A DNA stretch of 64,000 nucleotides from Bacillota bacterium (GTDB lineage: Bacteria; Bacillota; Dehalobacteriia; UBA4068; UBA4997), in the NCBI GenBank assembly GCA_021771915.1, contig JAETNY010000001.1, positions 124,001 through 188,000 on the forward strand, read 5' to 3'. How positions within the stretch are numbered: position 1 is the first letter of the stretch; every line of letters starts with the position of its first letter. The notes beneath the pieces are model-generated. The model searched no databases. It was not told where the DNA came from and saw only the letters and a program-made list of their open reading frames with translations. Of the stretch, positions 37,849 through 49,451 are shown piece by piece. The position numbers and the translations under genes were made by a program.

Positions 37849-39795
37849 ATGAAATCAATTAAGTACAAAATCTTGGTTGGTATGCTGTCTGTGGTGCTTT
37901 TGGGTTCCACTCTTATTGGCATTATTACTGCTCTTTTGAATGCTGGCGGAATTGATACGCTGATGCAGAAAACATTGGGTCCGGCCACGCATATGGCGGC
38001 TGAGGCTGTGCAATGGAAGATGGATAATTATTGGACGGCGCTTCAGGAAGCGGCGGCTTCTGATATTTTTCGTAATTCAGACCCAACTGCGCCGGAACTG
38101 GTGCCGGTTCGTGATGATATTGCAGCGCGCAATGGCTTTATTTACGTTGGTAAAATGGACGCTGATGGTTATTCCTCCACAGGGTACAGTTATGCTGATG
38201 AATATTATTTTCAGAATTGTAAAGAAACCATGCAGCCTTATATTTCTGATATAATGAATGACGGTTCCCAGATGGTTTTTATTCTGGAGATGCCGATTAT
38301 TAAAGAGGGGCGCTTTGACGGTTTGGTTTATGCCGGTATCAGCGCTGACTTTTTGACGGATATTGTAGTAGATTTGGCTATGGGCGATGATGGAATGGCC
38401 TATGTTTTGGATAATCGTGGCTATGTTATTGGGCATCGTGACAGTTCTGTTGTTGTGGAGGGCTCCAACATGATTGAAGCAGCCAAAACCGATGACAGTT
38501 TGGCCGATGTGGCGGCGGTAAATCAGCGCATGATTCAGGGTGAAACTGGTTTTGGTACATATAAGTTTTATGGCGATAATAAATTTGTGGGTTTTGCACC
38601 GATTGGTGGCAATCAAAATTGGAGTATAGCGATTGAGGCCAGTCAGCGAGAGTTTAAATCAACGCTGGATAAAAGTATCATGCTTACCATATTGGTGATT
38701 TTGTTTGTGGTGGCTTCTTCTTTCTTTATCGCCATGCGTTTGGCTCGCTCAATCTCCAATCCTATACGCACTTGTGTTACACGGTTGCAGCAGCTGGCGG
38801 ATGGCGATTTGCAGACGCCAACGCCTTTGGTAAATTCTACTATTGAAACTACGGAGTTGACCAGGGCTCTGGAATCAACCATTGCCCGGTTAAACGATGT
38901 TTTGCAGGACGTTTCCATTAATTTGGGCAAAATGGCGCATGGCGATTTTCGAGAAAACAGTATACATTCTTATTCCGGTGATTTTGTGGCGATTGAAAAA
39001 TCAATAAGCACTATTCATAATTCTTTGCGAGATACGCTTTTTCGTATCAGTCAGTCTGCCGAAATGGTTGCCTCAAGTTCCGGTCAGGTGGCAAGCAGTT
39101 CTAATTCCCTGAGCCAGGGCGCTACGGAGCAGGCAAGCGCTGTTCAGGAACTTTCCGCAACTATTAATGGTATTTCCGAAAACGCCAAGCAAACGGCAGC
39201 CGCGGCAGAGGAAGCCGGTCAGTTTGTTAATGAAGTTCTGTCCAAACTCGGGGTCAGCGTGGATTATGTTAGTGAATTGAACCTGGCTATGAAGCGAATT
39301 TCCAATTCATCAGAGGAGATTGGCAAAATTATTAATACGATTGAAGATATTGCTTTTCAAACTAATATTTTGGCCTTGAATGCTGCGGTGGAGGCGGCTA
39401 GGGCAGGTTCTGCCGGCAAGGGCTTTGCAGTTGTGGCTGATGAGGTGCGCAGGCTGGCATCAATGTCTGATGAAGCCGCTAAAGCAACCAAGGATTTGAT
39501 TGAGGGTTCAATTATGGCTGTTGCCGACGGTGAGAAAGTGGTTGTCAAAGTTACGGATTCTTTGACCCAGACCAATACTATTGCCGGCAATGTAACTGAG
39601 AAAATGGATATTGTGGTTACGGCTGTTGAGAGTCAGACAACGGCTATTTCACAGGTTACGGAGGGTATCGACCAGATATCGGCGGTGGTTCAGGTTACTT
39701 CTGCTACTTCCGAGGAAAGCGCTGCTACTTCACAGGAACTTTCAGAACAATCTAAGCTGATGAATAATCTGGTTGGTGAATTTCAGTTGAAATAA
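37849..39795 (+). CDS. Methyl-accepting chemotaxis protein with Cache-type sensor domain
   Basis: TM, extracellular domain, TM, HAMP, signalling tip [48 protein letters not shown]. Confidence 0.96.
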
Positions 39796-39820
39796 GTAAA
39801 ATAACAGGGTGGTGCGGAAA

Positions 39821-41515
39821 ATGAAAGTAATTATCGTGGGTGGTGTGGCTGGCGGCGCAAGCGCGGCGGCCAGACTGCGTCGGTTGGACGAAAGCGCGCA
39901 GATTATAATGTTGGAGCGTTCCGGGTATGTTTCTTATGCCAACTGCGGCCTGCCTTATTACATTGGCGGTACGATTAAGGAGCAGCGTAGTCTGACTTTA
40001 CAAACGCCGGCCAGCTTTGCGGCTCGTTTTAATGTGGAGGCCAGAGTTCAGCATGGGGTTTTGGCTATTGACCGCGAGTCTAAAACTGTTACGGTGCGCG
40101 ACCTGACAAATGGCCAGGAATATACAGAAAACTACGATAAGCTGATTTTGGCGCCGGGAGCCCGGCCGGTTGTGCCGCCGCTGCCTGGTGTGGATAGCAG
40201 CAAAATTTATACGCTACGAACGGTGGAAGACACTTTGCGTTTGCGCGAGGCTGTGCTTAATAAGCAGATTAAAAGCGTGGCTGTAGTTGGCGCTGGCTTT
40301 GTGGGCGTGGAAATGGCGGAGAATTTGCAGGAACTGGGGCTGGAGGTCAGCTTAATTCAGCGTGAGGAACATATTCTGCCGCCGCTGGATAAGGATATGG
40401 CCAGCTTTTTGCATGCACATATGTGCGCGCAGGGGGTTAAACTGTTGCTGAACCAGAATGTGACCGCTTTTGCGGAAACAGCTGCCGGTATTGATGTTTT
40501 GCTGCAAGACCAGCCGGCTGTCAGCGTGGATATGGTGGTTTTGGCGGTGGGCGTGGCGCCGGAAACAGATTTGGCTCGGGCGGCCGGTTTGCAGCTGGGA
40601 GTTAAAGGCAGTATTATGGTTAATGAACACATGCAGACTTCAGACGCGGATATCTATGCGGTGGGCGATGCGGTTTCCGTTACCAACAGTGTGAGCGGCG
40701 AAAAGGCGCTTATTGCGCTGGCCGGGCCAGCCAACAAGCAGGGGCGGATTGCCGCTGAAAACATTGCCGGGCTGGATAGCTGCTATCAGGGTTCGCCGGC
40801 CACGGCAGTTTTGAAAGTTTTTAAGATGACGGCGGCTTTTACCGGCCTGAATGAACGGGCGGCTCGGGCGGCTGGTCTGGATTATGAAAAAATTATTTTG
40901 GCGCCGGCTTCGCATGCCTCCTATTATCCCGGCGGCAATTTAATGACTATTAAGCTGCTTTTTGCGCGAGATAGTCAGAAGATTATCGGTGCACAGATTG
41001 TTGGCTTTGACGGTGTGGATAAGCGTCTGGACGTTCTGGCTACGGCTATGCAGGCCGGACTGACGGTTCTGGCGCTGAAGGACATTGATTTGGCCTATGC
41101 GCCGCCATATTCTTCAGCCAAAGACCCGGTTAATATGGCCGGCTTTATTGCAGAAAATGTTGTTACTGGTAAAGTGCGCCAGTTCTTTTATGAGGATTTG
41201 GTCGCTTTGCCGCAGGACGGCAGTATAACCATGCTGGACGCGCGCACGCCGGCAGAATATGCGCAGGGGCATGCGGAGGGTTTTGATATCAATATTCCGG
41301 TTGACGAATTGCGCGGTCGTCTGCATGAGTTGAATAAAAGCAAGCCGGTTTATGTGATGTGCCGCACGGGTCTGCGCAGTTATATTGCTTGTCGGCAGCT
41401 TATGCAGGCCGGTTTTGAGTGTTATAACTTTGCCGGCGGCTATCTCTATTATGCCAGCGTGCATGATGAGTTTTTTGACAGTGGCTGCACGACTGAATGT
41501 GGCCGCAAAGCATAG
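39821..41515 (+). CDS. CoA-disulfide reductase-like flavoprotein with C-terminal rhodanese domain
   Basis: VIIVGGVAGGASAAARLRR, SYANCGLPYYIGG, DIYAVGDAV; C-term VMCRTGLRSYIACRQL. Confidence 0.93.
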   Translation: MKVIIVGGVAGGASAAARLRRLDESAQIIMLERSGYVSYANCGLPYYIGGTIKEQRSLTLQTPASFAARFNVEARVQHGVLAIDRESKTVTVRDLTNGQEYTENYDKLILAPGARPVVPPLPGVDSSKIYTLRTVEDTLRLREAVLNKQIKSVAVVGAGFVGVEMAENLQELGLEVSLIQREEHILPPLDKDMASFLHAHMCAQGVKLLLNQNVTAFAETAAGIDVLLQDQPAVSVDMVVLAVGVAPETDLARAAGLQLGVKGSIMVNEHMQTSDADIYAVGDAVSVTNSVSGEKALIALAGPANKQGRIAAENIAGLDSCYQGSPATAVLKVFKMTAAFTGLNERAARAAGLDYEKIILAPASHASYYPGGNLMTIKLLFARDSQKIIGAQIVGFDGVDKRLDVLATAMQAGLTVLALKDIDLAYAPPYSSAKDPVNMAGFIAENVVTGKVRQFFYEDLVALPQDGSITMLDARTPAEYAQGHAEGFDINIPVDELRGRLHELNKSKPVYVMCRTGLRSYIACRQLMQAGFECYNFAGGYLYYASVHDEFFDSGCTTECGRKA

Positions 41516-41528
41516 TTTAATATGTAGA

Positions 41529-41566
41529 AAATATCCCCAGGCGTTTTTTAGCGTTTGGGGATATTT
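41529..41566. terminator. Intrinsic terminator
   Basis: AAATATCCCCAGGCG ... CGTTTGGGGATATTTATTCTT. Confidence 0.88.
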
Positions 41567-41741
41567 ATTCTTAATCCATAAAAATATATAATAGGGATAG
41601 CGCATTGTTTTCTGGTATTCCAGAAAATTTTGTGAAATATTTGTAGACGTGCGCGGAAAAATTTGTTATAATTATAAAGTTAAGTAAATAATAACCTGTA
41701 AATACTTACAAAACAGACCAAAATATAAAGGAGCTGCGGAC

Positions 41742-42224
41742 ATGACTGAAGCAATGCTTAGGCCGCCTTTTATGGAAGCGGATTGGCCGACAAAAATCGA
41801 GTATATGAACGAAAATGAAAATTTTTATCACTCTGACGGTTTAGAGGTTGTGGAACTGGCAAAGGGTTGGGTGCATATGATTTTGCCGGTGCAGAAGCGT
41901 CATTTGAATTTACAGGGCATGGTGCATGGCGGCTGGCTGGCTTCGCTGATTGGTCAGGCGGCTGGCAAGGCGGCGCTTTCTTATGGTTATTTTGTGACGC
42001 CGGAGCAGATTTCTTTAAATTATCATAATAATTGCAGCGGCGGCGTTTTGCATGCGGTGGCCGCTGAAAAGAACCGCGGCAAGCATTTGGGCATTTATAC
42101 GGTTGACGTGCGCGATGACAAAGGGCTGTTGATTGCTTCTGGCACGGCGACATTGTATATTCAGGATAAAATTGTTGATTTTCCGCGTGAAAGGCGCGCG
42201 GTTTCACAGTCGGATTTTATTTAG
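41742..42224 (+). CDS. PaaI-family hotdog thioesterase
   Basis: NLQGMVHGGWLASLIGQAAGKAALS; SLNYHNNCSGG; TATLYI. Confidence 0.85.
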   Translation: MTEAMLRPPFMEADWPTKIEYMNENENFYHSDGLEVVELAKGWVHMILPVQKRHLNLQGMVHGGWLASLIGQAAGKAALSYGYFVTPEQISLNYHNNCSGGVLHAVAAEKNRGKHLGIYTVDVRDDKGLLIASGTATLYIQDKIVDFPRERRAVSQSDFI

Positions 42225-42238
42225 GGGGCATTGGGATA

Positions 42239-43927
42239 ATGAACTGGTTAGCGGAAACACGTTTTTATTTGAAACAGGATTTACAGGCGGCGGCAGAGGC
42301 GGCTCGGTCGGCTGGTCTGCTTAATTTTGAGGAGTTGCCGGATTTTGTGATTGAGCGCCCAAGAGAAAAGGCGCATGGTGATTTTGCGGCCAATCTGGCG
42401 ATGCTGCTGGCCAGACAGGCCAAAATGGCGCCGCGCAAGATTGCGGAGTTGTTGGTGGCGCAGCTTTATCAGGACAAGCCGGCAGTTTGGGTGGAACGCG
42501 TGGAGATTGCCGGCGCTGGTTTTATCAATTTTTATATGAAGCCTGATTGGCTGACGTCTGGTCTGGCTGATGCGGCGCAGCGTGGTACTGCCTTTGGTGA
42601 AAGTGACTTCGGTCAGGGTGAGCGCGTTAATGTGGAATTTGTTTCAGCCAATCCTACCGGTGAGTTACATCTGGGTAACGCCCGAGGCGCGGCGATTGGC
42701 GATAGTCTGGCGAATATTATGCAAGCGGCCGGTTTTGCGGTGGAGCGTGAATATTATATCAATGACGCCGGCAAGCAGATTGAGAATTTTGGGCTTTCTC
42801 TGGAGGCGCGTTATTTGCAGCAGCTGGGGCAGGAAGTGGAATTTCCTGAGGACGGCTATCACGGCGAGGATATTGTCGAAACAGTAAAAAATTATATCGA
42901 AACAGAGGGCGATAAGCTGCTGACGGTTCAGCCGGATTTACGCCGGGAAATTTTGACGCGTTTTGCTCTGCAAAAGAAGTTGGACGCTATTCGGACGGCG
43001 CTGTTGCATTACGGCGTGGAATATGATACCTGGTTCAGCGAGCAGACTTTGCATGACAGCGGCGCGGTGAAGCAGGTGGTGACTGATTATAAGGATGCTG
43101 GTTTGCTGTTGGAGCAGGAAGACGCGCTCTGGTTTGCGGCGGATAAATGTGGCTGCGATAAACCGGAGGTGCTGGTGCGCGCTAATGGTATTCCCACCTA
43201 TTATACGGCGGATATTGCTTATCATAAAAACAAGTTTGAGCGCGGTTTTAGTCGGCTTATCAATATTTGGGGCGCCGACCATCATGGTCATGTGGCGCGT
43301 CTGAAATCGGCTATGGGAGCGCTTGGGTATTCCGAGGACAAGTTAGAGGTTATTTTAATGCAGTTGGTGCGTTTGTTCTCCAACGGCGAGATTATGCGCA
43401 TGTCCAAACGCGCCGGCACTTATGTTACACTGGAAGAACTGTTGGAGGAGGTTGGCCGGGACGCTGCGCGCTTTTTCTTTGTGATGCGTTCTGCTGACAG
43501 TCAGATGGATTTTGATTTGGATTTGGCTAAAAGTCAATCTATGGATAACCCGGTTTACTATGTGCAGTATGCGCATGCGCGAATTAACAGCATTTTAATG
43601 CAGGCGGCGGAGCAGGGCGTTGAGTTGGTGGATTTGGCAACGGTGAATTTTGCATTGCTGGTTGATGAAACTGAGCGCGATTTGCTGCGCAAAATTTTGG
43701 AGTTGCCAGATGAAATTGTGGCGGCGGCGGTGCAGAGAGCACCGCATAAAATTGCCGCTTATGTTATGGATTTGGGCGCGCTTTTCCATAGCTTTTATGC
43801 TGTTTGTCGGGTTTTGGGCGTGGACGCGGATTTGCAGCAGGCCCGGCTTTGGCTTTGCCGGGTGACGGCTGGAGCGGTGGCCAAATGTTTGCAGCTTTTG
43901 GGCGTGTCCGCACCGGATAAGATGTAA
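42239..43927 (+). CDS. argS: Arginyl-tRNA synthetase
   Basis: VEFVSANPTGELHLGNARGAAIGD, NIWGADHHGHVARL, MRMSKRAG. Confidence 0.98.
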   Translation: MNWLAETRFYLKQDLQAAAEAARSAGLLNFEELPDFVIERPREKAHGDFAANLAMLLARQAKMAPRKIAELLVAQLYQDKPAVWVERVEIAGAGFINFYMKPDWLTSGLADAAQRGTAFGESDFGQGERVNVEFVSANPTGELHLGNARGAAIGDSLANIMQAAGFAVEREYYINDAGKQIENFGLSLEARYLQQLGQEVEFPEDGYHGEDIVETVKNYIETEGDKLLTVQPDLRREILTRFALQKKLDAIRTALLHYGVEYDTWFSEQTLHDSGAVKQVVTDYKDAGLLLEQEDALWFAADKCGCDKPEVLVRANGIPTYYTADIAYHKNKFERGFSRLINIWGADHHGHVARLKSAMGALGYSEDKLEVILMQLVRLFSNGEIMRMSKRAGTYVTLEELLEEVGRDAARFFFVMRSADSQMDFDLDLAKSQSMDNPVYYVQYAHARINSILMQAAEQGVELVDLATVNFALLVDETERDLLRKILELPDEIVAAAVQRAPHKIAAYVMDLGALFHSFYAVCRVLGVDADLQQARLWLCRVTAGAVAKCLQLLGVSAPDKM

Positions 43928-43954: not shown

Positions 43955-45520
43955 ATGGCGACAAAATATATATTTTTTACCGGCGGCGTGGTTTCCTCGC
44001 TGGGCAAAGGTCTGACAGCGGCCTCGCTTGGCACGCTGCTTAAGGGGCGCGGTCTGAAAGTTGGCGTTTTGCGGCTGGATACTTATTTTAATACGGATAA
44101 CGGTCAGATGAACCCTTACCAGCATGGTGAAGTTTTTGTTACTAACGATGGCAGCGAAACTGATTTGGCGCTTGGGCATTATGAGCGCTTTATGAATATC
44201 AGCCTGGGGCAAAGTTGTTGCAGTACTCTGGGGCGCATTTATCGGCGTATTCTGGACCGGGAGCGTTCAGGTGATTTTGGCGGTAATACCGTGCAGGTTA
44301 TTCCACACGTTACCAATGAGATTAAACGCACGATTACCAGCGGTTTGGCTGAGTTGGCTTTTGACGTGATTATTGTGGAAATCGGCGGCGTGGTTGGTGA
44401 TATTGAGTCCCTGGCTTTTTTGGAAACCATCCGTCAACTGCGTTATGATTTGGGCAAGGAAAATACGCTTTTTGTACATGTGGCGTTGGTTCCTTATCTG
44501 CGCGTGGCCGGAGAGGCCAAAACCAAGCCGGTGCAGCACAGCGTGAAAACTATGCGCAGTCTGGGCTTGCAGCCTGATGTAATTATCTGTCGCACGGAAG
44601 TGGAGTTGGAGGAAGCCGCTATCAGCAAAATTTCTCTGTTCTGTGATATTGAGCGTGCGGCAGTTTTTCAGGAGGTTTATACCGATAATGTTTATGAATT
44701 GCCGCTGACGCTGCACCGGCAGGGTTTGGATAAAATTGTGGCGGAAAGACTGCGTCTGCCGGAAAAGGAGGCAGATATCAGCGGCTGGGACGCATTTTAT
44801 CAGCGTAGTTTGGCAAATAATAAGCCTGTGCGGCTGGCGCTTATCGGTAAATATACCAGCCTGCCGGACGCTTATATCAGTTTGGCTGAAGCGCTACGCC
44901 ATTGCGGTATCAATTTGGGTATTGATGTGCAGGTGGACATGTTGGCGGCGCAGGAATTGACTCCGGAAAACCTGACGGAGCGTTTATCGGAATATGCCGG
45001 CTTGGTTATTCCCAACGGTTTTGGCGTGCGTGGCACCGACGGCATGATTTTGGCGGCCGGCTGGGCGCGGCAGCAGCAAAAGCCCTGTCTGGCTATTGGC
45101 ATGGGTATGCATGCGATGCTGGTTGATTATGCGCGCAATGTGGCCGGACTGGCAGCGGCGATGCCGGAGAGTGGCTCACCCGATGTGCTTTTTACGGCCA
45201 GAAGCAGCAGCGGCAGCCTGGAATGTGGTCTGATGCCAGTCAGTTTGCGTGAAAAAAGCCGATTGGCGGCGATTTATGGTCGTTTGGAAATTCATGAGCG
45301 GCATCGGCACCGTTATGTACTGCGTGAAGATGTGGCAGCGGCTTTGAGCAAGGCCGGTTTGCAGATAAGTGGTCGTTCGGCGGAAAGCAATTTTGCGGAA
45401 GCTATTGAACTGTCGGCGGAAAACCACCCCTGGTTTATCGGTTGCCAGTATCACCCGGAATTTATATCCCGGCCGGAGCAACCGCACCCGTTGATTATGG
45501 ATTTTTTGCAAAATATTTGA
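43955..45520 (+). CDS. pyrG: CTP synthase homologue with degenerate catalytic residues
   Basis: KYIFFTGGVVSSLGKGLTAASLG, PYQHGEVFVTNDGSETDLALGHYERF, VEIGGVVGDIES, AKTKPVQHSV; GATase domain with CQYHPEF but GMGMH instead of GICLGMQ. Confidence 0.9.
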   Translation: MATKYIFFTGGVVSSLGKGLTAASLGTLLKGRGLKVGVLRLDTYFNTDNGQMNPYQHGEVFVTNDGSETDLALGHYERFMNISLGQSCCSTLGRIYRRILDRERSGDFGGNTVQVIPHVTNEIKRTITSGLAELAFDVIIVEIGGVVGDIESLAFLETIRQLRYDLGKENTLFVHVALVPYLRVAGEAKTKPVQHSVKTMRSLGLQPDVIICRTEVELEEAAISKISLFCDIERAAVFQEVYTDNVYELPLTLHRQGLDKIVAERLRLPEKEADISGWDAFYQRSLANNKPVRLALIGKYTSLPDAYISLAEALRHCGINLGIDVQVDMLAAQELTPENLTERLSEYAGLVIPNGFGVRGTDGMILAAGWARQQQKPCLAIGMGMHAMLVDYARNVAGLAAAMPESGSPDVLFTARSSSGSLECGLMPVSLREKSRLAAIYGRLEIHERHRHRYVLREDVAAALSKAGLQISGRSAESNFAEAIELSAENHPWFIGCQYHPEFISRPEQPHPLIMDFLQNI

Positions 45521-45550: not shown

Positions 45551-46666
45551 TTGGTTAAGGTAACAGACGAATATCAATTCCGCCTGCTGGCTGATGAGCC
45601 TGGTAATGCGGAGAAATTTGACGCTTTTGTGGCGGCGCACCCCAAGGGGCATGTGTTGCAAAGCTGGAATTGGGGGCAGGTTAAGCAACCGGCCTGGCAG
45701 CCGCTGCGTTTGGTGGCGGAAAAGGCCGGGCAGATTTGCGGCGCGGTTTTGCTGTTGCAGCGGCAACTGCCGGCTGGACTGGGGCAGATTTTTTATTCAC
45801 CGCGCGGCCCGGTGCTGGATATTGCTGATGAGGCGCTTTGGCAGCGGCTGGTGGCGGAGGTTGGCCGGCTGGCAAAGGAACGCGGCGCAATTTATTGGAA
45901 GATTGACCCGGACGTAGATATTGACGCGCCGGAGGCCGTGGTTTGGCATGAGCGCCTGAAACAGTCCGGTTTTGCCCTTGTGGATAAAGGCGAGGGTTTT
46001 GAGGGTATTCAGCCGCGCTTTGTTTTTCGGTTGGATATTGCGCCAGAGGTGGAAACATTGCTGGCTAACTGTCATCAGAAAACGCGTTATAATATTCGTC
46101 TGGCCGGGCGCAAGGGTGTGGAGATTGTCAGCGGCGCCGGGCGCGATTGTCTGCCGGAATTTTACCGAATTTTGACGACAACCGCCACGCGTGACCATTT
46201 TCTTATTCGTCCGTACAGCTATTTTGAGGGCTTTTACGACTATTTGCACCCGGTTGGGCAGACTGAACTTTTTATGGCTTACTATGAGGGCGAGGCGATT
46301 GCCGGCACGCTGGCTTTTCGCATGGGTGATAAGGCCTGGTATATTTACGGCGCCAGTTCTAATTCACATCGTAATTTGATGCCCAACTATCTTATTCAGT
46401 GGACGATGATTGAGTGGGCCAAAGCGCAGGGCTGCACGATGTATGATTTCCGCGGCGTGCCGGGGCATGTGGCGGAGGACCACCCTTTGTATGGCCTGGT
46501 GAAGTTTAAAAAGGGTTTTGGCGGCAAATATACGGAATTTATCGGCGAATATGATTTGGTATTTAATCAGAGCAAATATAAGATGTATAATTTTTTGGAG
46601 CCAATCTATCAGAAAAATGTGCGCAAGATTATTAATTTGAAGAAAAAATTAAAGGGTCAGAAATAA
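45551..46666 (+). CDS. Peptidoglycan bridge-forming aminoacyltransferase (FemAB/MurM family)
   Basis: HVLQSWNWGQVK, YFSPRGPVL-like FYSPRGPVLD, WKIDPDV, ALAFRMGDKAWYIYGASSNSHRNLMPNYLIQW, DFRGVPG. TTG start. Confidence 0.9.
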   Translation: MVKVTDEYQFRLLADEPGNAEKFDAFVAAHPKGHVLQSWNWGQVKQPAWQPLRLVAEKAGQICGAVLLLQRQLPAGLGQIFYSPRGPVLDIADEALWQRLVAEVGRLAKERGAIYWKIDPDVDIDAPEAVVWHERLKQSGFALVDKGEGFEGIQPRFVFRLDIAPEVETLLANCHQKTRYNIRLAGRKGVEIVSGAGRDCLPEFYRILTTTATRDHFLIRPYSYFEGFYDYLHPVGQTELFMAYYEGEAIAGTLAFRMGDKAWYIYGASSNSHRNLMPNYLIQWTMIEWAKAQGCTMYDFRGVPGHVAEDHPLYGLVKFKKGFGGKYTEFIGEYDLVFNQSKYKMYNFLEPIYQKNVRKIINLKKKLKGQK

Positions 46667-46677
46667 AAGGCCGAAAG

Positions 46678-47898
46678 TTGAGATTTGCTATGGCAGAAAA
46701 TATTTTGGCAAAATTGCAGCATTGGATAGAAATTGATTTGGATAAGCTGGCCAGTAATGCACAGATTTTGCGGCAGCATTTGCAGGCGCAGACGCCGGGG
46801 CTGAAGCTTTGGGCGGTGGTGAAAAACGACGCTTATGGCTACGGCGCGGTGGAGTGCGCACAGACGCTGGTTACGTCAGGTGTGGACGGTCTGGCGGTGA
46901 CCTCGTTGGAGGAGGCTTTGCAGCTGCGCGAGGCTGGTCTGGAAACGCCGTTGCTGGTGTTTCTGCCACCGCAGGCGGCGGAATTGGATTTGTTTGCGCA
47001 ATATCATTTGACGGCTACGCTGGACAGTGCTTATACAGCGGAAATTTTGCAGGGTTGGCCGCAGGTTGCGTGTCATCTTAAAGTAAATACCGGTATGAAC
47101 CGTTTCGGCGTTAATCCGGGCGAGGAACTGGCTGCGGTTTTGCAGCTTTTGGCGCAGGCTGACGCTCCGAGGCTGACTGGGGTATATTCACATCTGGCGA
47201 CGGCGTTGGCGGCTGATGAAAAATTTGCCAGAGTGCAAATTGAGCGTTTTGCGCAGGCTAGGGAACAGGTGTTGGCGGTGCGGCCGGCGGAGGACATTTG
47301 TTTTCATCTGGCCAATTCGGCTGGCTGTCTGCGTTTTCCGCAGGCGCATTTTTCGGCGGTGCGTATTGGTTCGGCGCTTTATGGTCAACTGGGTCTGGCG
47401 AAAAAGTTGGGCTTAAATCTGGTCGACCCTTTTTCGGCCAAAGCGCGCGTGGCGGCGGTGCGCCAGTTGTCCAAGGGTGATGGAGTGGGGTATAATCAGG
47501 AGTTTTGTGCGCCGAAGCCCATGCGTCTGGCGGTTATTCCGTATGGTTATGGCGATGGCTTTGGCGTTATGCCTAATGCCAGGGAATTGACGATTAAGGA
47601 CAGCGTGCAGGAGATGAGCCGCAATATTGGCCGGTTGGTTTTGGGGCGCTATCAGCGCGGCGTTTATTATCAGGGCCGGCTGCTGCCGGTTTTGGGGCGT
47701 GTGGCTATGCAAAGCATGATGGTGGATATTGGCGATTTGCCTTTGCAGCCGGGGGCGGTGGTTGATGTGCCAATTCGGCGTACAGCGGCTTCATCGCGGC
47801 TGCCCAGGGTCTATATCGAAAAGGGGAAAATTGTCGCAGTACATGTTCTGATGGCGCAAAAATTGGATTTGGGTGGCGTCAGCCCAAAAAAGGCGTAA
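46678..47898 (+). CDS. alr: Alanine racemase
   Basis: WAVVKNDAYGYGAVECA (PLP Lys), LKVNTGMNRFGV, VGYNQEF, GRVAMQSMMVDIGD. Confidence 0.95.
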   Translation: MRFAMAENILAKLQHWIEIDLDKLASNAQILRQHLQAQTPGLKLWAVVKNDAYGYGAVECAQTLVTSGVDGLAVTSLEEALQLREAGLETPLLVFLPPQAAELDLFAQYHLTATLDSAYTAEILQGWPQVACHLKVNTGMNRFGVNPGEELAAVLQLLAQADAPRLTGVYSHLATALAADEKFARVQIERFAQAREQVLAVRPAEDICFHLANSAGCLRFPQAHFSAVRIGSALYGQLGLAKKLGLNLVDPFSAKARVAAVRQLSKGDGVGYNQEFCAPKPMRLAVIPYGYGDGFGVMPNARELTIKDSVQEMSRNIGRLVLGRYQRGVYYQGRLLPVLGRVAMQSMMVDIGDLPLQPGAVVDVPIRRTAASSRLPRVYIEKGKIVAVHVLMAQKLDLGGVSPKKA

Positions 47899-48758: not shown

Positions 48759-49451
48759 ATGCTGGACACGGGAACAAACACGCCTGCGCAGGCCGAGCGT
48801 TTGAAGCAGGTGCAGGCTATGGAAAAGGCCTTGAAGCAATTTCGGCAGCAACAGGAAACAGAAAAATCAGAATTTGCGGCGGAATTTGGCCGCTTAAGCC
48901 GCACGGACAGCCGCCTGGCGGCCTTTGGTCTGTTGGAGTCGGTATCGTTGACGGCCTTGCTGCTGGCTTGTGAAAGCGCGCTTCGGGCGGCGAATTTGGA
49001 GCTTTTGTGGCTGCAGGAGCGCGGAAACGGTTGGGCGGCAGCCTGTTTGCAGGGCAACAGTGAGGATTTGGAGCAGGCTATGGCTAAAGCCGGGGCGGCC
49101 GGCAAGCGTCTGGGTGAGCCGATTTTGGCGCAAATGTTTAAAGACCCTCCGCTGGTGCTGCGTCGTTGGTTTTTAACGCAGGGCACGTTGGCGGCGTTGG
49201 CTGGAGTTGGGGGTGAAAATATGCAGCTTAAGGACGCGGACAAGGTTAGGGAGCAGCTGGCCGGCCGTGTGCAGCTGCAAAATGCGGTTTCTCTGCTGGA
49301 ATATACTGATGCGGAGCTGCGCAGTTTAATTCGGCAGCAACTGCCGGACGAGGATAAGTTGACGCGCAGCCGGCTTAATTCCATGCATAAAGAGGAATTG
49401 GTTGATTTTTATAATCAGCTTAATCATGGGCAAGTACCGGTTTTGAATTAA
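48759..49451 (+). CDS. Hypothetical protein (230 aa)
   Basis: AGGAGG SD; consistent coding style; no recognised domain. Confidence 0.65.
   Translation: MLDTGTNTPAQAERLKQVQAMEKALKQFRQQQETEKSEFAAEFGRLSRTDSRLAAFGLLESVSLTALLLACESALRAANLELLWLQERGNGWAAACLQGNSEDLEQAMAKAGAAGKRLGEPILAQMFKDPPLVLRRWFLTQGTLAALAGVGGENMQLKDADKVREQLAGRVQLQNAVSLLEYTDAELRSLIRQQLPDEDKLTRSRLNSMHKEELVDFYNQLNHGQVPVLN

Follow-up and report, generated by a model that had tools for sequence, protein, structure and literature searches.

An argS-linked CTP synthase homologue with both catalytic centres altered, conserved beside an intact PyrG in a genus of Bacillota

CTP synthase (PyrG) is near-universal and essential. In the stretch of DNA analysed here (64,000 nucleotides, referred to as the window), the gene directly downstream of argS encodes a PyrG-like protein in which residues of both the glutaminase and the synthetase centre are replaced. 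The locus raises the question of whether such a protein could still make CTP and, if it does not, what it might do in a cell that also carries an intact PyrG. The features of the locus were as follows.

41529-41566, plus strand: terminator-like hairpin of 17 pairs ahead of the unit (consensus match only)
41644-41672, plus strand: promoter-like site TAGACG-17-TATAAT ahead of the unit (consensus match only)
41742-42224, plus strand: hotdog-fold thioesterase (PaaI-like; TIGR00369), head of the likely transcription unit in the genus
42239-43927, plus strand: argS, arginyl-tRNA synthetase (TIGR00456, synteny), directly upstream with a 27-base gap
43955-45520, plus strand: argS-linked native PyrG orthologue (521 aa) with both catalytic sites altered
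44072-44074, plus strand: codon 40, Arg in place of the canonical Lys40 (alignment)
44168-44170, plus strand: codon 72, where Ala (GCG) replaces the canonical Mg-ligand Asp72 (alignment)
45098-45100, plus strand: codon 382, where Gly (GGC) replaces the canonical glutaminase nucleophile Cys379 (alignment)
45551-46666, plus strand: femX-like peptidoglycan aminoacyltransferase (PF02388, synteny), directly downstream with a 30-base gap
46678-47898, plus strand: alr, alanine racemase (TIGR00492, synteny), last gene of the argS-pyrG-femX-alr block

Predicted fold and altered residues

The 521-aa open reading frame was intact from the ATG at 43955 to the stop at 45520, and its product matched PF06418 (CTP_synth_N, E = 9.6e-112) and PF00117 (class-I GATase, E = 2.4e-27), both above cut-off; no domain beyond these two was detected with Pfam. 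The protein scored 617 bits with TIGR00337 (cut-off 462.75), was also above cut-off with NF003792, and fell below it with NF004836 (114.6 bits, cut-off 260). An AlphaFold2 model had a mean pLDDT of 89.2 and a pTM of 0.88. The top PDB matches to this model were all CTP synthases, with query-normalised TM-scores of 0.92-0.95 for the best 25, and identity to E. coli PyrG was approximately 44% in the structural alignments. Values of pLDDT below 50 were found only at residues 49-51 and 418-420, which correspond to the altered 'DPGTM' loop and the shortened wing. The reading frame, the Pfam and TIGR00337 matches and the fold model all bear out the initial annotation of an intact CTP synthase-like gene. 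Since TIGR00337 and NF003792 were both above cut-off, automatic annotation is expected to name a glutamine-hydrolysing CTP synthase; caution is warranted, as database models label such proteins 'glutamine hydrolyzing CTP synthase'.

The protein was aligned with E. coli PyrG, whose residue numbers are used throughout, and about 110 other CTP synthases. All of the substitutions and codon positions given in the initial annotation (GGC at codon 382, GCG at codon 72, Arg at codon 40) were confirmed. In the glutaminase domain of the window protein C379G (LAIGMGMH) and G351N (IPNGFG) were present, and GGTMRLG was replaced by SGSLECG, with a deletion just N-terminal of the motif. The synthetase domain carried K40R, D72A and a change of DPGTM to DNGQM. 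Further changes were P43T, T144V, T191V, L380M, Q383H, deletion of E403, R440E, E472V and L109G; K18, E140, D147, E149, K187, K189, Q192, K223, F227, H515 and E517 were unchanged.

Altered copies were recovered from nine genomes of the genus, with K40R, P43T, D72A, T191V, C379G and E472V present throughout. In 113 of 113 canonical sequences positions 40, 72 and 379 are Lys, Asp and Cys, respectively; in the genus they are Arg (nine of nine altered copies), Ala (nine of nine) and Gly (every altered copy). The Cys379-His515-Glu517 triad is broken by the genus-wide Gly at 379, with His515 and Glu517 present, and the altered glutaminase domains also have G351N/D, L380M, Q383H and the deletion of E403. 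A catalytic Cys supplied from elsewhere was sought in the alignment and no replacement was found: there was no other genus-conserved Cys that could stand in for the nucleophile, and Cys378 of the window protein is missing from half of the genus. The GTP site is changed by L109G and the shortened wing.

In the phosphoryl-transfer set K18 and E140 are present, and K40 and D72 are replaced by Arg and Ala in all nine altered copies. The equivalent residues of Drosophila CTPS (K16, K38, D70 and E145, corresponding to K18, K40, D72 and E140) act on the transferred phosphate, which D70 touches via water; activity was strongly reduced by K16A and by K38A (PMC8325340). Since K40R is conservative and E140 is present, some phosphoryl transfer could persist in the altered protein. 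The UTP/CTP pocket (S14, D42, H57, E103, Q114, D147, E149, K187, K189, Q192, K223 and F227) is retained in full, and the sole difference among the pocket positions examined was T144, which is Val in seven of the eight full-length altered copies. By descent and fold the protein is a member of the CTP synthase family, but one that has neither a complete glutaminase triad nor a complete phosphoryl-transfer set.

Conservation and origin of the altered gene

The altered gene was found at the same locus with the same substitutions in all nine genomes (eight copies were full length and one was split over two contigs; most genomes compared are draft assemblies), and the frame was open in every full-length copy. 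A strain-level artefact, which the initial annotation would have suspected had no relatives shared the substitutions, or a sequencing error was ruled out by the agreement of these nine genomes, whose copies were placed in a tree. Between genus members dN/dS ranged from 0.016 to 0.162 over the whole altered gene and from 0 to 0.111 in the synthetase domain, values similar to those of the neighbouring argS and femX genes. Synonymous sites were near saturation between many of these genomes, and the derived residues were fixed while their codons varied (GCG/GCA/GCC for Ala72, GTA/GTG/GTT for Val472, GGC/GGT for Gly379), a pattern that implies selection on the derived state itself. Together with the sharing of the changes by nine genomes, it lies well outside what chance would produce. 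Open frames, dN/dS and synonymous codon variation ruled out a pseudogene with a broken frame or relaxed constraint.

Conservation of the canonical columns was uneven. All eight full-length altered copies were unchanged at 118 of the 141 near-invariant columns, a near-invariant column being one conserved in 97% or more of the 113 canonical sequences. When the 151 columns conserved in 104 canonical sequences were used as the base, four of nine catalytic columns had changed (K40R, D72A, G351N/D and C379G) compared to 14 of the other 142 (Fisher one-sided p = 0.012). The altered gene is under strong purifying selection, and the fold and the UTP/CTP pocket have been kept.

The second canonical pyrG for which a genome search had been proposed was found at G000:C18:59731-61317; all of its catalytic residues are present and it is followed by guaA. 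Both pyrG copies were detected in eight of the nine genus genomes. In the ninth (G005) neither the intact pyrG nor guaA was detected, as expected of an assembly gap, and, because guaA, the neighbour of the intact pyrG, was undetected too, the altered copy was not accepted as the sole CTP synthase of that genome. A genome-wide loss of glutaminase function was not supported in the genome of the window: seven GATase domain matches were obtained, and the Cys motif is present in CarA, GuaA, the intact PyrG and two further GATase proteins (the motif of one match, L171, was not settled). No 16S gene was detected in this assembly.

Tree building placed the argS-linked copies from families f1, f4 and f5 in a single clade (support 100/98), inside the larger group to which the class's native PyrG and other Bacillota belong; the stem branch of the altered copies was long, at 1.7 changes per column. 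The intact copies of the genus grouped with Oscillospiraceae- and Eubacteriaceae-labelled sequences from gut Clostridia (support 98/91). The order argS-pyrG-femX-alr was found with a fully intact pyrG in families f6 and f7, with G037 and G036 among the class members that share it, and is the ancestral gene order of the class. On the tree and synteny together, the altered gene is the native, vertically inherited pyrG orthologue and the intact copy is an acquired newcomer; the same two lines of evidence rejected the altered copy as a foreign gene. It had been proposed that the position next to argS makes a random paralogue less likely. The gene is the native orthologue, but a functional link to argS does not follow, since an ancestral neighbourhood marks orthology only.

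In G010 (family f2) argS lies directly beside femX, which indicates that the native pyrG has been deleted there. The f2 and f3 genomes manage without a native copy, so it is not generally needed, which counts against the partner role proposed below. These absences, the lost catalytic residues and the long stem branch are what would be expected if the native gene were decaying, made redundant by pyrG acquisition. In this genus, however, the gene is intact in every genome whose contig spans the locus, its dN/dS is like that of argS and femX, and its derived residues are fixed near synonymous saturation. As a general account decay is contradicted by dN/dS and codon variation, and it was considered very improbable.

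The short gaps of 27-30 bases make co-transcription of the altered pyrG with femX and alr likely, and the thioesterase gene precedes argS wherever a genus member's contig extends that far; promoter-like sites in the region numbered 12 against 8.1 expected. Such a unit would suit a protein that senses CTP/UTP on its own or serves a structural (filament) role, with a regulatory target distinct from PyrG such as its own operon or the adjoining cell-wall genes, and the retention of the nucleotide pocket after loss of catalytic residues is also compatible with this role. CTP synthase filaments influence other processes in some bacteria. The gene order is, however, older than the catalytic loss, so that the neighbours say little on function, and the protein has no extra domain; a stand-alone role was judged to be doubtful.

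Several other features of these loci were recorded. Upstream of the unit, a methyl-accepting chemotaxis-like protein (37849-39795) precedes a CoA-disulfide reductase-like protein (39809-41515), in which the family match spans residues 6-445 of 568 and which has a rhodanese-like C-terminal extension. Downstream, 48759-49451 encodes a 230-aa protein that weakly matches the bacterial microcompartment (BMC) domain (E = 1.7e-7) and stands alone among housekeeping genes. At the other locus, G000 carries a phage-type integrase gene on the downstream side of guaA (L033:10084-11157) and a similar ORF occupies the same place in G013 (L041:10654-11727), which suggests that guaA serves as a mobile-element integration site near the acquired pyrG. 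GMP synthetase paralogues in which the glutaminase domain is absent or degenerate are neighbours of the live pyrG in a number of the order's genomes (L038:7711-8737 in G008, L037:3828-4254 in G002, L042:4785-6113 in G012, the minus strand of L043 in G017, and L154 in G020); several of these genomes also carry a full-length GuaA elsewhere, in parallel with the pyrG story.

Stages of catalytic loss among relatives

All argS-linked native copies of families f1, f4 and f5 were without Cys379. The copy of the sister genus (G009) has C379G, that of G013 (f5) has C379G and H515L, and those of G012, G015 and G017 (f4) have C379N and H515L; in each of these the ligase residues K18, K40, D72 and E140 are intact. 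D72A and K40R on top of a dead glutaminase were found only in the genus of the window. Read along the tree, glutaminase loss predates the genus and K40R and D72A were added later, a two-step route in which the glutaminase was lost first and the synthetase residues afterwards.

A profile of the argS-linked dead copies was searched against a draw of 398 genomes of the phylum. Full-length clade members scored 917-999 bits and sequences elsewhere no more than 846; of the 23 best outside matches, 21 had a normal Cys motif and two were unsettled by the motif scan, and D72 was present in all. Within this sample the clade was confined to the order.

Glutaminase loss also occurred independently. It was seen in single-copy PyrG proteins of UBA4996 (L082, C379A) and of a Gallicola-labelled MAG (L076, C379S/H515Q), in a Christensenellaceae MAG (C379G, beside an intact copy) and in G028 (C379G/H515N, the only copy found in an 85% complete genome). 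The L082 and L076 proteins are candidate natural ammonia-dependent CTP synthases. Genome G022 encodes a highly diverged CTP synthase homologue (L189:921-2567, 30% identity) with K18R, K40R, D72V, E140D and C379G, which had no settled position in the tree. This gene and the G028 pyrG (L047:5360-6958) are each followed by a gene for a large protein carrying bacterial Ig-like (Big_5) domains, and these two proteins are related (30% identity over 547 aa).

A dead glutaminase combined with intact ligase residues was found in G009, f4a, f5a, G028 and L082, and not in the window protein. This bears on the possibility that the altered protein is still a catalyst: it might be a CTP synthase fed with ammonia whose phosphoryl-transfer chemistry has changed, or a ligase with a new function in which UTP or a related nucleotide is activated for another nucleophile. 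K18, E140 and nearly all UTP/ATP contacts are present, and constraint is tighter on the synthetase half (dN/dS 0-0.11) than on the other. The G009, f4 and f5 relatives resemble an ammonia-dependent stage, and single-copy glutaminase-dead PyrG proteins occur elsewhere (UBA4996 and G028). On the other hand, the two replaced residues, K40 and D72, work on the transferred phosphate, and K38A, at the K40 position, strongly lowers Drosophila CTPS activity (PMC8325340); the cell already has an intact PyrG, and no biosynthetic neighbour genes hint at a new substrate. Retained catalysis was considered somewhat unlikely. The initial annotation had offered an ammonia-only CTP synthase or a repurposed pseudoenzyme; the first description fits the G009, f4 and f5 relatives, whose K18, K40, D72 and E140 are intact, better than the window protein. 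The second gains support for the genus because both active sites are altered and an intact second pyrG is present in the genome.

Relation to the live PyrG and to known systems

The likeliest reading, with a probability of roughly 0.45, is that the altered protein is a nucleotide-binding pseudoenzyme which acts as a non-catalytic, prozyme-like or regulatory, partner of the live PyrG. It would still bind UTP or CTP and oligomerise like CTP synthase, would make little or no CTP, and would be mixed as a non-catalytic subunit into tetramers with the live PyrG. The dead subunit might either activate its live partner, as prozymes do, or set its CTP feedback. The fuller version, in which the genus has a mixed two-paralogue CTP synthase with the acquired PyrG as catalytic subunit and the native PyrG as nucleotide-binding regulatory or activating subunit, is put forward more tentatively.

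Prozyme-like retention, with the dead copy kept beside a live paralogue, was seen in eight of the nine genus genomes. Only four otherwise conserved columns (97% or more) are changed in the genus's live copies, namely by E122K, V195I, P205A and F227L/Q, and the dead copy retains the canonical residues at 122, 195, 205 and 227. Judging from E. coli structures, Phe227 is part of the CTP-sensing pocket. Its absence from the live copies and presence in the dead copy fits the non-catalytic-subunit model, and the CTP feedback of the live PyrG may be altered in the genus. Among canonical CTP synthases in general, F227L/Q and E122K, as in the live PyrG proteins L033, L034, L035, L036, L037 and L038, are rare.

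In the live copies of three lineages that have a dead partner, changes were concentrated in residues 103-124 (13 of 46; permutation p = 0.00125 in a window scan, for a segment that was noticed before it was tested). The dead copies seldom changed there (1/27, 0/19, 0/14 and 2/15). In Drosophila CTPS, the residue that matches Leu109 touches GTP bound by the neighbouring subunit (PMC8325340), and through this contact with another monomer the pattern resembles a complementary interface change. However, two of the three f1 changes (109 and 115) are at positions also changed in the partnerless intact relatives L116, L118 and L141, position 109 is changed in a further such relative (L115), and the pattern was not repeated in Christensenellaceae (G063), the fourth lineage to have both a live and a dead copy, where the segment has only a conservative V113I. 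The sequence comparison is suggestive only of a complementary interface change between live and dead copies.

No report of a conserved natural CTP synthase copy that had lost catalytic residues of both centres was found in the open-access literature searched. If the partner reading is true, the altered protein would amount to a prozyme in bacteria, serving an essential nucleotide enzyme. The order presents a graded series, with the native gene intact in sister families, glutaminase-dead in three families, doubly altered in this genus and lost in another family, which makes the second life of a displaced native enzyme directly testable.

Several known systems resemble the altered protein in part. 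Trypanosomatid prozymes of AdoMetDC and deoxyhypusine synthase (PMC5201418, PMC3663545) are likewise conserved dead paralogues beside a live oligomeric enzyme, and trypanosome deoxyhypusine synthase is activated by its dead paralogue in a 2:2 tetramer (PMC3663545); those enzymes are eukaryotic and unrelated and their complexes are proven, whereas that of the bacterial pair is proposed. Human CTPS1 and CTPS2 also represent two CTP synthase paralogues per cell and are a precedent for association and altered CTP feedback, as CTPS1 becomes more sensitive to CTP when CTPS2 binds it (PMC12442307). Both human enzymes are competent, unlike the bacterial pair of one intact, acquired copy and one apparently dead, native copy. 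Carbamoyl phosphate synthetase 1 is ammonia-dependent, with the glutaminase-domain Cys replaced by Ser294 (PMC4655335); this natural loss of the nucleophile from a retained glutaminase domain is a model for the f4, f5 and G009 relatives, but the synthetase sites of CPS1 are active and the window protein has lost synthetase residues as well. The proteins of NF004836 (CTP synthase C-terminal region-related (seleno)protein) derive from the PyrG glutaminase domain and are without the synthetase domain that the window protein has. A further comparison is with PyrG itself (TIGR00337, PF06418 and PF00117; E. coli PDB 1S1M/5TKV). Cys379, the oxyanion Gly351, Glu403, Lys40 and Asp72 are replaced or missing in the window protein, and its GTP contact Leu109 and wing region are altered, but it shares with PyrG the domain architecture, the predicted fold, the UTP/CTP pocket and the orthologous argS-pyrG-femX-alr locus.
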